Assembly (NCBI GenBank): GCA_014804365.1 | Contig: JAAUZX010000002.1 | Coordinates: 1-64,000 of the forward strand | Direction: 5' to 3' | DNA length: 64,000 bases | Origin: Lachnospiraceae bacterium | GTDB lineage: Bacteria > Bacillota > Clostridia > Lachnospirales > Lachnospiraceae | Shown here: positions 23,005 to 59,096 of the stretch, piece after piece | Position numbering within the stretch: position 1 is the stretch's first letter | How the letters are laid out: the number at the start of each line of letters is the position of its first letter | Notes under the pieces: model-generated | Seen by the model: only the letters and a program-made list of their open reading frames with translations | What the model was told of the DNA's origin: nothing | Databases searched by the model: none | Translations under genes and position numbers: made by a program

Positions 23005-23007
23005 AAA

Positions 23008-23083
23008 AAAAGTAATTTGCTTCGCAAATAACAAAAGTAATTTGCATTGCAAATAACTTTACGAGATTCGCTTCGCGAACTCG
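23008..23083. repeat. Two abutting 25-bp direct repeats, each a small hairpin, followed by a third hairpin
   Basis: AAAAGTAATTTGCTTCGCAAATAAC (23008-23032) and AAAAGTAATTTGCATTGCAAATAAC (23033-23057), then CGAGATTCGC-TTC-GCGAACTCG (23062-23083). Confidence 0.8.
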
Positions 23084-23108
23084 AAGGTGAAAGGAATGTA
23101 ATATAGTT

Positions 23109-24407
23109 ATGGATGGACAGTTAAAATGCGGAACAGTTCTTACCTCTGAAAGCGGTAACAAATATACGGTTGAGAAATTGTTGGGTTCCGGCGGGCAGGG
23201 CGAGGTGTATTCTGTAATTGCGAACCACAAGACATATGCGTTGAAATGGTATTATAAGAATACCGCGACCAAAAATCAGAAGGAAATACTGGATAATCTG
23301 ATTCAGAGCGGACAGCCTGACCCTTCGTTTTTGTGGCCGCAGGATATGATCTTTAAGGTATACGGCGAATCTTTCGGCTATATCATGCCGCTCAGACCGA
23401 AGAATTATAAAAGTATCGTGGATATGATGAAAAGAAAGGCAGAGCCGTCTTTCTACTGCCTGTGCAAAGCAGCCTATAATCTGACAAAAGGGTACAATGC
23501 GCTGCATGGAAAGGGATACAGCTATCGGGATATTTCTTTCGGCAATGTATTCTTTGATCCGGATACCGGGGATGTGCTCATATGTGACAATGATAACGTT
23601 TCTTATAACGGAGCGAAAACCGGCATATACGGAACACCCCGGTTTATGGCTCCCGAGATTGTCGTAGGTAAGGCGAAGCCATCGAGAAACACGGATCTAT
23701 TTTCTCTGGCGGTGCTGCTGTTTTACATGTTTATGCTGAATCATCCACTGGAAGGCAGACGGGAAGCGCAGATCAAATGCATGGACATTCATGCGATGAA
23801 CCAGTTGTACGGAACAGATCCGCTGTTCATTTTTGATCCGGATAACAGAGATAACAGGCCGCTTGCCGGATATCAGGACAATGCGCTTATTTTTTGGGAT
23901 CTATATCCACAGCAGTTAAAAGACCTGTTTACGGCATCATTTACGGTAGGTTTGCAGCAGCCTAACCGGAGAATAACGGAGAGCAAATGGCTGGAAACAT
24001 TTGCAAATCTTATGTCAGGGATCATGATTTGTCCTAACTGTGGCGCGGAAGTATTTTACGATGCGTACAAAGATGCAAACAGCGTTATGCATACATGCTG
24101 GGGCTGTCAGAAGGCGGTGCCCGTTCCCACCAGACTGGTGGTCGGCAGAAGCACTATACTGCTTATGACTAATACGAAGATCTATAAGCATCACATAGAC
24201 GGTGAGCATGATATGGAAACCGTAGTGGGAGAAGTGGTACAAAATCCGAATAACCCGAATCAGTGGGGAATTAAGAATCTGACAAAAGAAAATTGGACAT
24301 ATATGAAAGCGGATGGAACACAGATTCCCATAATGGAAGGACGTTCTGCCGCAATTGCCAAAGATACGAAGATTGACTTCGGACAGTTGATAGGAGAATT
24401 TCATTAA
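23109..24407 (+). CDS. Serine/threonine protein kinase-like protein with C-terminal zinc ribbon (TerY-P-type kinase)
   Basis: GSGGQGEVYSV, YALKWY, YRDISFGNVFF, CDND, GTPRFMAPEIV kinase motifs; CPNCGAEV...CWGCQKAV zinc ribbon. Confidence 0.87.
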   Translation: MDGQLKCGTVLTSESGNKYTVEKLLGSGGQGEVYSVIANHKTYALKWYYKNTATKNQKEILDNLIQSGQPDPSFLWPQDMIFKVYGESFGYIMPLRPKNYKSIVDMMKRKAEPSFYCLCKAAYNLTKGYNALHGKGYSYRDISFGNVFFDPDTGDVLICDNDNVSYNGAKTGIYGTPRFMAPEIVVGKAKPSRNTDLFSLAVLLFYMFMLNHPLEGRREAQIKCMDIHAMNQLYGTDPLFIFDPDNRDNRPLAGYQDNALIFWDLYPQQLKDLFTASFTVGLQQPNRRITESKWLETFANLMSGIMICPNCGAEVFYDAYKDANSVMHTCWGCQKAVPVPTRLVVGRSTILLMTNTKIYKHHIDGEHDMETVVGEVVQNPNNPNQWGIKNLTKENWTYMKADGTQIPIMEGRSAAIAKDTKIDFGQLIGEFH

Positions 24408-24422
24408 GGCTGTGAGAAAGGC

Positions 24423-25616
24423 ATGGGTTTTAGTATGGAAGACTATAAGGTTCTGGCAAAAATCATACAGGATTATCCGGATGCTCTTTCGGAGAGGAAG
24501 AAACTGCAAGCTCTGTTTTCGGATTTTTTTCCTCAGGACAGGCTTAAAAGAAATACATTGTTGATGGTATTTGACGACGGCATCGTAAATGAGATGAGGG
24601 GACTGACGCAGATGGATAAAATCATGCTGCATCGGTTCGTTAAGTCAGTTGAACAGGGATACGGAATAAGAACAAAAAATGCAGAAAATGCGGTGCTTAC
24701 ATGGGCGCAGGCAATGGGACTTTCGCCTGATAACGGACGGTCTGCTGCGCAGGGCGGTGAACCGGAAGCGGTGCCGGCGGATGAAGAAAGTGTAAAGGAA
24801 TGGACTGCGGTTGAAAGCGACAGCTTATACGAGTATGAAGAGACATCGTGGGGAATCAAGATCCTTCGGTTTGTGGATTTTGATGAGAACGTTGTAGTCA
24901 TTCCGAATGTCATTGAAGGGAAAAAAGTAATTGCGGTTTGGAATCATGCTTTCAAAGGATGCGTCGGCATAGAAAAGATCATAGTTTCGGAAGGAATAGA
25001 AATACTGGGAAACGGCGTATTCCTAAACTGCAAAGGTCTAAGGGAAGTGGTTTTACCGAGTACCTTGAAACGGATCGGCACGACGGACCCGGCGGGCTGT
25101 CCGGCAATATTAGGCGGTATGACCAAATTTGACGGCGCTTTTGAATATACCGCGTTGGAAAGCATAGTGATACCGAATCGCGTAAAGTATATCGGCGAAT
25201 ATACTTTTGCAGGCTGCGGAGAACTGAAAAAAGTCGTGCTTCCGTCTGATTTAAAGGAGATTCGTCAAGGGACTTTCCGCTGGTGCAGAAGCTTGGAAGA
25301 AGTGGTGTTCCCCCGGGAACTGGAGGCAGTCAGATTGTCGGCATTTGAAGGCTGTGAATCGATGAAAACGGTTGATCTGCCGGAGGGTGTAACAAGCATA
25401 GAGGAAGGAGCGTTCGCGGGATGTAAGAATCTGCAGAGCATTTATATACCGGATTCCGTAGTGCAGATCGGCGGCGGAAAAGGAAGCGGATTTTTACAGA
25501 CATTCGGGGAACCTGAAGAAAGACGTGAGGATTTTACCATTTTATGCAATGCGGGATCTTACGCGATGCGGTATGCCAGAACACAACAAATAAAATGTGC
25601 AAGCGCACAATATTAA
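24423..25616 (+). CDS. BspA-type (LRR_5) leucine-rich repeat protein with N-terminal helical domain, no signal peptide
   Basis: VWNHAFKGCVGIEKIIVSEGIEILGNGVFLNCKGLREVVLPSTLKRIG; FAGCGELKKVVLPSDLKEIRQGTFRWCRSLEEVVFP repeats. Confidence 0.8.
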   Translation: MGFSMEDYKVLAKIIQDYPDALSERKKLQALFSDFFPQDRLKRNTLLMVFDDGIVNEMRGLTQMDKIMLHRFVKSVEQGYGIRTKNAENAVLTWAQAMGLSPDNGRSAAQGGEPEAVPADEESVKEWTAVESDSLYEYEETSWGIKILRFVDFDENVVVIPNVIEGKKVIAVWNHAFKGCVGIEKIIVSEGIEILGNGVFLNCKGLREVVLPSTLKRIGTTDPAGCPAILGGMTKFDGAFEYTALESIVIPNRVKYIGEYTFAGCGELKKVVLPSDLKEIRQGTFRWCRSLEEVVFPRELEAVRLSAFEGCESMKTVDLPEGVTSIEEGAFAGCKNLQSIYIPDSVVQIGGGKGSGFLQTFGEPEERREDFTILCNAGSYAMRYARTQQIKCASAQY

Positions 25617-25628
25617 GGAGGAACTACT

Positions 25629-26351
25629 ATGTCAGGACTGAAAAGACCGGGAGGAGAACTGGCGAGCAGACCGTTACATTTTTTTTGGATAGTGGACTGT
25701 TCCGGCTCCATGTACGGTGAGAAGATCGGAACGGTGAATCATGCGATTCAGTCAACCATACCGGAGATGGTATCGGCGGCGGAGAACAATCCGAATGCCC
25801 AGTTGATGATTCGTACTTTGAAATTTTCCACGGGTGCATCATGGGTGACGAGCAGCCCGGTAAATGTGGAAGATTTTGCGTGGGATGACTTAGAGGCGGA
25901 GGGCGTAACCGATTTAGGCAAAGCGTTCGAACTGCTATCGGCACAGCTTACGATTCCGCCGATGTCAGACAGAGCGTTGCCGCCTGTCTTGGTGTTATTG
26001 TCAGACGGGCAGCCTACGGACGATTATAAGAAGTCGCTTGCGGAGCTTAAAAAACTTCCGTGGGGCAAGAAAGCCGTTAAGATAGCGATTTCCATCGGAC
26101 AGGATGCGGACGATGATGTCCTGGTTGAGTTTACGGGAAATAAAGAGCTGGTTTTGCAGGCCAATAATGCAGCGGCGCTTACGAAGATGATCAAATGGGC
26201 ATCTACCGCAGCATCTCTTGTTTCAGCGCCTGCAAGCGTTGCGATGAACGATGAAGGAGCGGCCGGAGAAGAGGGTACGGCGCCGGTGATTGTGGACATG
26301 GGCGGAAGGCTCCCTGACCTCGATGATATTCAGGAAGGTGATGTTTGGTAG
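25629..26351 (+). CDS. vWA domain protein of TerY type (TerY-C domain absent)
   Basis: FFWIVDCSGSMYGEKI (MIDAS DxSGS), EGVTDLGKAFELL, VLVLLSDGQPTDDY. Confidence 0.87.
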   Translation: MSGLKRPGGELASRPLHFFWIVDCSGSMYGEKIGTVNHAIQSTIPEMVSAAENNPNAQLMIRTLKFSTGASWVTSSPVNVEDFAWDDLEAEGVTDLGKAFELLSAQLTIPPMSDRALPPVLVLLSDGQPTDDYKKSLAELKKLPWGKKAVKIAISIGQDADDDVLVEFTGNKELVLQANNAAALTKMIKWASTAASLVSAPASVAMNDEGAAGEEGTAPVIVDMGGRLPDLDDIQEGDVW

Positions 26352-26365
26352 AAAGGACGTTGCAT

Positions 26366-27199
26366 ATGATACGAAGTGTATTCGGTGAATCTGTGCAGGG
26401 CGCATCCCATATCAGAAACGGCAGAGAATGTCAGGACAGCCTGAAAAAGCTGGAAAAGGATGGTGACACGGTCATATTGGCGGTGGCTGACGGACACGGA
26501 AGCGATTCCTGCCCGTACAGTAAGACCGGTTCCTATGTGGCAGTGAATGTTTTTTGCAAAATTCTGGGCGACTATTTGGATACTTACGACGGACAGCCGG
26601 CGCTGCTTTTGACATTCCTGAAACGGGAAGGCGATACGAAGGTGGCGCAGGCGATCGATGCCGAATGGAAGCGCAGAATATTGAAGATTCACGCTAACTG
26701 CAAGCGGGAAGCACTTTCGGATGCGGAAGGGAATAAAGACAAAGAAGCAATCTATAAGATGTACGGGAGCACACTTCTCGGGCTCGTCATTACGAAAGAA
26801 TTTCTTTTTGCTTTCCAGCTTGGTGACGGAGATATTGTAAAAGTGTCGGAGACGGGCGTACAGAATATTATTGAGGCGGATAAGATTCTGGGAACGGAAA
26901 CGCATTCGCTCAGCAAGGCAGAGTCTTGGAAGAAAGCTATCACTTTTACAAAAAAACAGGAAGAGAATGAGCGACATCCCGTTATGTATATGCTTTCCTC
27001 GGATGGATTGGCAAACAGCTTCAAAAATGACGATGAATTTAAAAAGACTTGCAACGACTACTATACATTGCTTAACGAGCATGGGGCAAAGGAGGTATCT
27101 GATCACCTGAAAACATGGCTTAGCGAAACAAGCGAATTAGGGTGCGGTGATGATATTACGGCTCTTTTTGCCTATTACGATGATCGGAATTGTGAGTGA
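26366..27199 (+). CDS. PP2C-family protein phosphatase
   Basis: GASHIRNGRECQDSL, VILAVADGHGSDSCPYS, GSTLLGLVI, FQLGDGDIVKV, MLSSDGLANSF, GCGDDITALFAYYD. Confidence 0.87.
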   Translation: MIRSVFGESVQGASHIRNGRECQDSLKKLEKDGDTVILAVADGHGSDSCPYSKTGSYVAVNVFCKILGDYLDTYDGQPALLLTFLKREGDTKVAQAIDAEWKRRILKIHANCKREALSDAEGNKDKEAIYKMYGSTLLGLVITKEFLFAFQLGDGDIVKVSETGVQNIIEADKILGTETHSLSKAESWKKAITFTKKQEENERHPVMYMLSSDGLANSFKNDDEFKKTCNDYYTLLNEHGAKEVSDHLKTWLSETSELGCGDDITALFAYYDDRNCE

Positions 27200-27236
27200 T
27201 TACTGCCGGTGTCGAACTTTGAAAGGGAGGATTGTC

Positions 27237-27596
27237 TTGGTTGAAAAAATGGAAGCCCGGATCGCACTGTGTAAGTGTAAAGAGGGCGGAAGAACATATG
27301 GTGTGCGCTTTGAGAAGATGGACGACAGCTGGAAATATACATGGGCTTTTCCGGTAAAAGAAGCATCCGCGAAGCGGGAAAACTATGATAAGACGAAAAT
27401 TGTGGGGAATCTTGTGCCGGATAATGGATATCCGGGATGTCCTTATTGCAAAACAATGGATTTTGTTGTCTGCAACTGCGGCAAATTGAGCTGTCATAAT
27501 GAAGGTGTTACCAAGTTTACATGTAACTGGTGCGGGCTGACAGGTACGCTTGGCAGATATGACGGGTCCGGTTTCGGATCAGGCAGCGATATATAG
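27237..27596 (+). CDS. Stand-alone TerY-C-like zinc-binding domain protein
   Basis: GCPYCKTMDFVVCNCGKLSCHNEGVTKFTCNWCGLTGTL; probable TTG start at 27237 with GGGAGG RBS (27225-27230). Confidence 0.7.
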   Translation: MVEKMEARIALCKCKEGGRTYGVRFEKMDDSWKYTWAFPVKEASAKRENYDKTKIVGNLVPDNGYPGCPYCKTMDFVVCNCGKLSCHNEGVTKFTCNWCGLTGTLGRYDGSGFGSGSDI

Positions 27597-27608
27597 GAGG
27601 ATAAATGT

Positions 27609-29883: not shown

Positions 29884-31056
29884 ATGAGATTACCTGGTGA
29901 GGAAGAATCCGGCGGTTCCGGACCATCCGTATTCTATATGGCAATCGGTGTGACCGCATTCGTGTTGATCTTATTGGTTTCGCTGTTTAAGGTCAACGAT
30001 AAGAAGAGAAGCGGAAGCGATTATATCAAAGAAATACAGCAGCGTCAGGAGGAAGCCGCGGCACAAGAAACTGCAACAGAGGAAGCTGCACAGACAGAGG
30101 CGGCGGGCCATAAGCTGAGGGCGGAGGATCTTGACTTCTGGGATATGTATCCGGTAGACGAAGAAGAGACAGGGTCGGATAAAGCGACAGAACCGAGTAA
30201 GCCGGCGAAATCCACTTTTGCAGATAAAGCGGAGAAAGAACGGCAGGAACAGCAGCAGAAGGAACAGGAGGTGCCAATCGATCCTTCCACGGACGGGAAG
30301 CACACCTTAGTCACAACACCGGACGGTAAAGATGAGTGGGTGCTGATCAGTCCGTATCTGACAAAGAACACTTATGATTTTACAAAGATAGAAGAGAAGG
30401 CCGGATTGAAACGCTATATGGAGAACGGAAGGAAGCTCTCCTATGTGGGCGTGGATATCTCCAAACAGACCGGAAGCGTTAATTTTGCGGGACTCAAAGC
30501 GGCAGGTGTCGATTATGTGATGATCCGTCTGGGCGGACGAGGATACAGCACCGGACAGATCACTCTGGACGAGAACTTTAAGGCAAATATAGAGGGCGCT
30601 ATTGCGGCAGGACTGGATATCGGCGTTTACTTTTATTCTCAGGCGATTAATCAGGATGAAGCAATACAGGAAGCAAATTTCGTGGTTCAAAATCTGGATC
30701 CCTACAAAGGAAATGTCAAATATCCTGTAGTGTTTGACATGGAGTTTGTGAGCAATGATGAGGCGAGAATAGACGGGTTGAGCAGAGAAGACCGCACTTC
30801 TGTGGCTATATCTTTTCTGGAAGGCGTGAAAGCGGCAGGCTATGTGCCGATGTTCTACGGAGATAAGGAATGGCTGATCAAGGAAATCGACCTTGCGAAA
30901 CTGCAGGACTATGACGTGTGGCTTGCGCAGGAAGAAGACATACCGGACTATCCGTATCAGTATGCGATGTGGCAGTACTCTACGAAAGGTGTGGTCAACG
31001 GTATAACGGGAGACGCGAACCTTAACATCTGTTTTATCGGTTATTCGCAACGGTAG
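29884..31056 (+). CDS. Membrane-anchored GH25-type lysozyme/muramidase
   Basis: N-terminal TM segment FYMAIGVTAFVLILLVSLF; YVGVDISKQTGSVNFAGLKAAGVDYVMIRLGGRGY; YPVVFDMEFV; YQYAMWQYSTKG. Confidence 0.87.
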   Translation: MRLPGEEESGGSGPSVFYMAIGVTAFVLILLVSLFKVNDKKRSGSDYIKEIQQRQEEAAAQETATEEAAQTEAAGHKLRAEDLDFWDMYPVDEEETGSDKATEPSKPAKSTFADKAEKERQEQQQKEQEVPIDPSTDGKHTLVTTPDGKDEWVLISPYLTKNTYDFTKIEEKAGLKRYMENGRKLSYVGVDISKQTGSVNFAGLKAAGVDYVMIRLGGRGYSTGQITLDENFKANIEGAIAAGLDIGVYFYSQAINQDEAIQEANFVVQNLDPYKGNVKYPVVFDMEFVSNDEARIDGLSREDRTSVAISFLEGVKAAGYVPMFYGDKEWLIKEIDLAKLQDYDVWLAQEEDIPDYPYQYAMWQYSTKGVVNGITGDANLNICFIGYSQR

Positions 31057-31838
31057 TGTCTGACCCCCGCGGATATCTTAATAGAAGCATATAAGTCGGC
31101 GTAGGCGGCAGGCGACATCCCTTCCATATAATTGGGGGTGTAGGCCTTGTCCACGCCGGCTTTTTTGAGTAGGTCAGCTGCTTTGTTATAGGCGATCGCC
31201 GCTTCTGTCTCAGAGTCGTAGGTGCCTACGGTTATATTACCCTTTACGTGTATTTTTACCTGATACCGGGTCTTACCGTCAATAGATATGGCGTTTACGC
31301 CGTTATACCGGTTGATGATCTCCACGTTTTCATAGCGCATATCCTGGTTGTTTCCGTTAAGGAAACGGTAATCTCTGCCCTCCACGGCATAATTCTTAAT
31401 ACCGTAACGGCTCATGATATTGACCTGCATGCCGTAATCCGCCACGAAATAGTGGCCGCCCCTGCGGGAAATACGGCGGGTAGAGTAGTAGAATAAATCT
31501 TCCAGATCAAATATAAAAAATTCCGAGAGTGAGAAATAGTAATAGAAAAATTTGGGACGAATATAGATCGGGGTAACAAAATAAATGCCGTTGTCACGAT
31601 AATTAAGCAGACTAACCCATTTCGGAAAAGAAAGAAGGGAGTCCGGCTGATAGTGACTGAGGGTGATGGAAGTGTCATTTAGCAGAGAACCGGCGAGTAC
31701 ATATGCCTGATGTGCGTCTGCGGCGCAGTCATAGCTTCCCAGACTGAGATGCTTATTGCGATAAGTTAATGAGGCGCGATAGTAGACGGTCTGGTCCTTG
31801 CGTTTAGCCGTATATACGCCGGGTAACTGCTTTTCCAT
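31041..31838 (-). CDS. AP2-domain protein with degenerate HNH homing-endonuclease-like core
   Basis: Two AP2-like segments (GVYTAKRKDQTVYYRASLTYRNKHLSLGSYDCAADAHQAYVLA; GVNAISIDGKTRYQVKIHVKGNITVGTYDSETEAAIAYNKAADLL) and DYRFLNGNNQDMRYENVEI between them; AAGGAGG RBS before ATG at 31838. Confidence 0.7.
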   Translation of the reverse strand: MEKQLPGVYTAKRKDQTVYYRASLTYRNKHLSLGSYDCAADAHQAYVLAGSLLNDTSITLSHYQPDSLLSFPKWVSLLNYRDNGIYFVTPIYIRPKFFYYYFSLSEFFIFDLEDLFYYSTRRISRRGGHYFVADYGMQVNIMSRYGIKNYAVEGRDYRFLNGNNQDMRYENVEIINRYNGVNAISIDGKTRYQVKIHVKGNITVGTYDSETEAAIAYNKAADLLKKAGVDKAYTPNYMEGMSPAAYADLYASIKISAGVRHYRCE

Positions 31839-31994
31839 ACGATTCCTCCTTTTTAATGATTGTACCATTTTTGAGAAAAAAAACAAATTCAGAAATATTT
31901 TTCCTTTTTCCTGTATAGAATATAAACATGGAATCAAATTGGTAACGCGCCACAGGGCGGTTGTCGGAATACCTTATCGGAAATCGGAGGAAAA

Positions 31995-59049: not shown

Positions 59050-59096
59050 GAGTTTGCGAAGCAAATCTCACAATCGAGCGTAGCTTGATTTTTTCT
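59050..59096. repeat. Composite intergenic double-hairpin element, copy 2
   Basis: GAGTTTGC-GAA-GCAAATCTCACA followed by ATCGAGC-GTA-GCTTGATTTTTT; aligns with 16684-16725. Confidence 0.65.

Follow-up and report, generated by a model that had tools for sequence, protein, structure and literature searches.

Described systems related to the locus

The TerY-P triad consists of a TerY-like vWA protein, a PP2C phosphatase, and a zinc-ribbon kinase encoded by adjacent genes (Anantharaman 2012, as summarized in PMC11090510; PMC4978471). What such triads control has been a standing question since this comparative-genomics description. A stand-alone anti-phage TerY-P—a module of three proteins, kinase, phosphatase, and vWA, that acts alone—is attributed to Gao 2020 in two later accounts (PMC11090510, PMC7699616), which let its kinase end in an OB-fold. 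Actinobacterial GAP1-N2 systems (PMC7159879) combine a kinase–zinc ribbon–β-domain protein with PP2C and vWA, and the same study describes the EADs, small helical domains common to many sensors and effectors of one core system. The main text of a 2026 survey of BREX systems (PMC12839542) mentions neither LRR nor transglutaminase nor von Willebrand, and its few mentions of "vWA" all concern MoxR–vWA systems.

The locus described here lies in a window of 64,000 nucleotides—the whole stretch of DNA that was analysed—from a Lachnospiraceae bacterium. It shares the adjacent vWA, PP2C, and zinc-ribbon kinase genes with the TerY-P triad, but its kinase and vWA genes are separated by an adaptor-LRR gene, TerY-C is encoded in a gene of its own, and no restriction or Ter genes adjoin it. 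Like the module of Gao 2020, it appears to act alone; where the kinase there is reported to end in an OB-fold, here a zinc ribbon is followed by a β-domain for which an FHA-like fold is the best hint, and vWA and PP2C are without a PADLOC match. The kinase layout is that of the GAP1-N2 systems, whereas no GTPase/GAP1 gene was identified in the locus, the host belongs to the Bacillota, and the adaptor-LRR protein is present. The adaptor domain resembles the EADs in size, helical fold, and distribution over many partners, yet it has no significant Pfam match, was not seen on any core component, and is found in one copy in the source genome. A likeness to BREX concerns distant triad relatives, which adjoin BrxL, in one case with PglZ upstream, whereas the source genome has no BrxL match. 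Judged by its sequence, the cassette is a real, stand-alone TerY-P variant with a promising, as yet unmodelled adaptor domain.

Layout of the locus

The cassette spans 4.5 kb and comprises five adjacent genes on the + strand, separated by 12–37 nt: a Hanks-type Ser/Thr kinase of 432 aa with a C-terminal zinc ribbon and β-domain (23109–24407; Pkinase 9.9e-21), an adaptor-LRR protein of 397 aa with BspA-type repeats (24423–25616; LRR_5 1.2e-40), a TerY-like vWA protein of 240 aa (25629–26351; VWA 1.5e-6), a PP2C-family phosphatase of 277 aa (26366–27199; PP2C_2 1.3e-35), and a separate TerY-C metal-binding domain protein of 119 aa (27237–27596; TerY_C 2.7e-10). All five proteins exceed their own Pfam cut-offs. 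Open reading frames, gaps, and Pfam matches agree with the earlier note, which had listed five consecutive + strand genes of these types; the HMM searches it called for assign the vWA protein to VWA and the protein starting at 27237 to TerY_C. The start codon of PP2C is the ATG at 26366. TerY-C starts with the TTG at 27237, with the ATG at 27249 also possible, and homologue starts make the ATG at 24435 the likely start of the LRR gene.

Upstream, on the same strand, rnfCDGEAB is separated from the kinase gene by a 104-bp gap (23005–23108) containing three short palindromes. Downstream, a 12-nt gap (27597–27608), recognized from the sequence and from empty sites, precedes the aldo-keto reductase/apbE pair. 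Promoter and terminator scans of the locus remained at chance level; hence, the operon structure rests on gene spacing.

Kinase, vWA, PP2C, and TerY-C proteins

In a 37-row kinase alignment, Lys46, Asp141, Asn146, Asp160, and Ala181–Pro182–Glu183 are invariant, and so are the cysteines C308/C311/C330/C333 of the zinc ribbon (residues ~304–340; 24018–24128, + strand). The AF2 model of the kinase (pLDDT 92.0, pTM 0.91) confidently predicts β strands after this ribbon. This C-terminal all-β domain (residues ~341–431; 24129–24404, + strand), which finds no match in the PDB by sequence, aligned in the right register with an FHA profile at an hhalign score of 24.9 versus 16.9 for the best of 30 column-shuffled control runs, at a probability of only 32%—a weak hint that it may be FHA-like. 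In Foldseek, the complete models of the kinase and the LRR protein retrieved nothing beyond generic kinase and LRR folds, and hence gave no assignment for the β-domain or the adaptor domain. In PADLOC, the kinase alone was matched—to the anti-phage kinases MAD6 and PD-T4-6, with a coverage mostly of the generic kinase domain—and TerY-C was also without a match.

The vWA protein keeps its MIDAS residues D23, S25, S27, T94, and D126 invariant in a 29-row alignment, has a conserved C-terminal DVW, and shares ~31% identity with vWA proteins from plasmids, among them one annotated terY. For PP2C, the metal-binding motifs ADGHGS, GDGD, DG, and GDD are conserved at at least 95%, as are C14, C68, C71, C79, C81, C86, C96, and C99 of TerY-C, whose Pfam score is 40.9 bits versus a cut-off of 28.4. 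The alignments thus show that kinase, vWA, and PP2C keep their active-site or MIDAS residues. At the sequence level, the locus has all that marks a TerY-P triad—MIDAS vWA, metal-binding PP2C, zinc-ribbon kinase, and linked genes—and the initial reading as a TerY-P-type module is borne out by domains, conserved residues, and gene linkage.

LRR protein and adaptor domain

Two features had escaped the earlier note: the β-domain of the kinase and an N-terminal helical domain in the LRR protein. The latter, here called the adaptor domain (~100 aa; 24435–24737, + strand; alignments A5/A6), is modelled by AF2 at a pLDDT of ~90 within an overall pLDDT of 83.7, and a disordered linker at residues ~104–132 separates it from the leucine-rich repeats (24840–25613, + strand; Pfam LRR_5). 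The closest folds to these repeats are of the TpLRR/BspA type (Foldseek, 6mlx, TM-score 0.84 normalized by target). Searched with 39 members, the adaptor domain has no significant match to any Pfam model; by this search, it matches no described EAD model either.

Of the 40 non-genus loci, 31 have a match to a profile of this domain no more than 2.5 kb from the triad; the profile was built from triad neighbours and is hence possibly blind to very divergent copies elsewhere. Partners of the domain include repeats (LRR_5, ankyrin, WD40, TPR, and Sel1), helicases (UvrD, DEAD, and AAA_11), and others (FGE-sulfatase, Tim44-like, Clp_N, ClpX zinc finger, and SH3_3); within the surveyed loci, it occurs on client proteins only and is never fused to a core component. 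Among 398 genomes of the phylum, three carry the domain, in five copies each ~3 kb or less from a vWA of the triad clade, and a strong vWA match occurs in these same three genomes only. Against 72,556 plasmids, one adaptor query copy matched a single record, which also carries the triad. The LRR protein had been presented at the outset as an additional partner of the triad: its LRR nature holds, its status as an optional extra does not, as adaptor-domain proteins accompany most triads of the clade.

In two loci, L080 and L095, kinase and vWA are separated by a gene for an adaptor-domain protein without LRR. The adaptor of the window groups with this type and not with the BrxL-linked adaptor-LRR proteins, at a modest support of 0.78; LRRs may hence have been joined to the domain twice. 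The single copy found in the source genome makes a pairing of two different copy-bearing proteins impossible here, which argues for docking to a core protein instead of a second adaptor-bearing protein. We think it slightly more probable than its opposite that the helical domain is a dedicated TerY-P docking domain and the core a general controller whose inputs and outputs can be exchanged, with the genus keeping its smallest form. Sensors (LRR, ankyrin, WD40, TPR, and Sel1), helicases, and protease-targeting parts (Clp_N and ClpX zinc finger) would then join via the adaptor. In the papers searched, we found no description of LRR partners, of the adaptor domain, or of the proteins joined to it; a mention in the 2012 Ter paper is possible.

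Two loci show further arrangements. On the Methylomonas sp. AM2-LC plasmid CP157007.1 (L111, 10462–15013), five consecutive adaptor proteins lie beside the triad, bearing Sel1 repeats, a Tim44-like domain, Clp_N, and a ClpX-type zinc finger, with one lacking a named partner; this array suggests a link of TerY-P to Clp proteases. In an Anaerolineae triad (L106, 907–3234), PP2C is fused to leucine-rich repeats and adjoins an adaptor-WD40 protein, a fusion that speaks for a direct functional connection of the phosphatase with the LRR.

The cassette within the genus

A scan of GTDB species genomes yielded 80 loci with organism names, 42 from the genus and 38 from Clostridia, Synergistota, Chloroflexota, and other groups; as the search patterns derived from the vWA of the window, the sample favours the clade of this vWA. 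Genus membership was judged by identity and gene order, and the members are mostly uncultured Lachnospiraceae. A vWA relative is present in 46 of 78 genus genomes versus 10 of 249 family-wide genomes. Kinase, LRR, vWA, and PP2C occur together in 40 of the 42 genus loci (tblastn)—the exceptions being L031, where the contig cuts off the kinase, and L049, which is without an LRR gene—so that the genes do travel together, the point on which a neighbourhood survey had been proposed. Of the five genes first described, TerY-C is the least constant, detected by HMM in 29 loci and absent from 13, of which L039 ends early.

Most genus copies lie between rnfB and the aldo-keto reductase gene. These two genes are directly adjacent in 17 genomes without the cassette, and in the 10 genus genomes that carry the cassette elsewhere, the rnfB site is empty in all nine where rnfB was found. 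The cassette is hence present or absent as one unit, of four to five genes, and stands behind housekeeping genes at more than one chromosomal site. One second site (L038, 899–7465) places it after rnc–smc–ftsY and a gene for a PLP-dependent enzyme. Genus copies away from rnf are without TerY-C.

Purifying selection acts on all five genes (median dN/dS 0.04–0.10). The LRR gene evolves most rapidly, at a median dN of 0.24 compared with 0.06 for vWA. Distances of the cassette genes track those of rnfB (Mantel r 0.59–0.79), a pattern that would result if the cassette, once inserted, was inherited mostly vertically. A prophage origin was rejected, with only two phage records matching the kinase (best 30% identity) and no viral contig encoding a TerY-C protein, as was a plasmid origin, with no plasmid vWA reaching at least 60% identity to that of the window.

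Neither TerD (PF02342) nor BrxL (PF13337) has a match in the source genome, an absence that is provisional at 84.9% completeness. Together with the presence or absence as a unit, this agrees with the stand-alone version suggested earlier. BrxL is absent from 73 of the 78 genus genomes, and of the five with BrxL, just two, G280 and G320, also have the cassette.

Relatives outside the genus

Outside the genus, the constant core is kinase–vWA–PP2C. Eleven loci follow the order BrxL–LRR–(small protein)–kinase–vWA–PP2C–(TerY-C)–(transglutaminase), although some of them are incomplete, and in L077, PglZ and a Schlafen-type gene lie immediately upstream. Other neighbours are TmtA/sacsin-like ATPases and DUF4011 helicase-REase proteins. 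Ter genes, whose families were not sought singly, did not show up as recurrent neighbours in the surveyed loci, whereas defence-type genes did; none of the non-genus relatives in these loci adjoins rnfB. The BrxL linkage suggests that some BREX loci may be under phospho-signalling control. In the papers searched, we did not find this BrxL-linked form of the triad described; the 2012 Ter paper possibly mentions it.

Proposed function

With somewhat more confidence than doubt, we take the locus to be a compact TerY-P-class phosphorylation switch that stands alone, most likely serving a stress or anti-phage response. The vWA protein, with Mg at its MIDAS, and TerY-C, probably with zinc, would form a scaffold, and the adaptor domain would dock the LRR protein onto this scaffold or onto the β-domain of the kinase. 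An intracellular cue detected by the LRR would tip the balance of kinase and PP2C, and binding would let the kinase transfer phosphate to the LRR protein or to targets in the host, while PP2C would reverse the phosphorylation and hold the switch off at rest. The β-domain, if indeed FHA-like, might allow the kinase to read its own phosphorylation. The cassette has no effector gene of its own, which makes host-protein phosphorylation its probable output. The stress or anti-phage purpose appears most likely because distant relatives of the core stand beside BREX and other restriction-type genes; a defence role of the cassette would follow by this analogy. Several findings count against this reading: PADLOC matches the kinase alone, L049 has no LRR gene, TerY-C is frequently missing, and no fusion of the adaptor domain to a core component was seen. 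Moreover, the source locus itself lies outside any defence island, with rnf genes on one side and aldo-keto reductase/apbE on the other.

These flanks might instead point to a housekeeping regulator, i.e., a redox or metal sensor that tunes the Rnf complex or ApbE flavin transfer by phosphorylation: in most genus loci, the cassette follows rnfCDGEAB directly, on the same strand and at the short distance given above, and it is co-inherited with rnfB. However, many genus members have rnf–aldo-keto reductase without the cassette, 10 others keep it away from rnf—after rnc–smc–ftsY in the locus examined—and non-genus relatives are never next to rnfB, which leaves this reading improbable. The TerY-like vWA and TerY-C domains could also sense metal in a tellurite- or metal-resistance module of the Ter kind, and published work connects the TerY-P triad with the sensing of metals (PMC11090510, citing Anantharaman 2012); with no TerD in the source genome and defence-type instead of Ter genes recurring around the surveyed loci, we hold this to be highly improbable. 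A kinase that is toxic when freed, restrained by PP2C and vWA, and triggered by the LRR for abortive infection would suit the matches to MAD6 and PD-T4-6, the defence-type contexts of relatives, and the precedent of the anti-phage kinase–phosphatase module KKP (PMC11341870). Yet the matches fall largely within the generic kinase domain, and across many species the cassette has stayed at one site instead of moving with islands; such a suicide kinase is conceivable, albeit unlikely.

For the phosphorylation switch that we prefer, the adaptor domain would mark the clients of the triad and thereby open a direct test of what TerY-P controls. The cassette is also carried by 0.1xD8-71 and 1xD42-87, relatives among the cultivable Lachnospiraceae of the gut, where the five-gene, effector-free version would make a convenient system.

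Further observations

The palindromes of the rnfB–kinase gap lie at 23016–23081 of the window. One of them, TTTGCTTCGCAAA, has two copies in the window versus 0.13 expected, the second at 59053–59065; it may be a dispersed repeat with a connection to insertion. On the − strand, 31041–31937 holds an open reading frame that, read by eye, we take to resemble AP2-type DNA-binding proteins.

In two Synergistaceae loci (L089, 4466–9075, and L096), the same gene pair lies downstream of PP2C: a SecA-type ATPase (Pfam, L089) and a protein of ~615 aa without a Pfam match in L089. In L102 (14985–19448), a clostripain-family peptidase of 1488 aa with BspA-type LRRs is encoded ~3 kb downstream of the triad.
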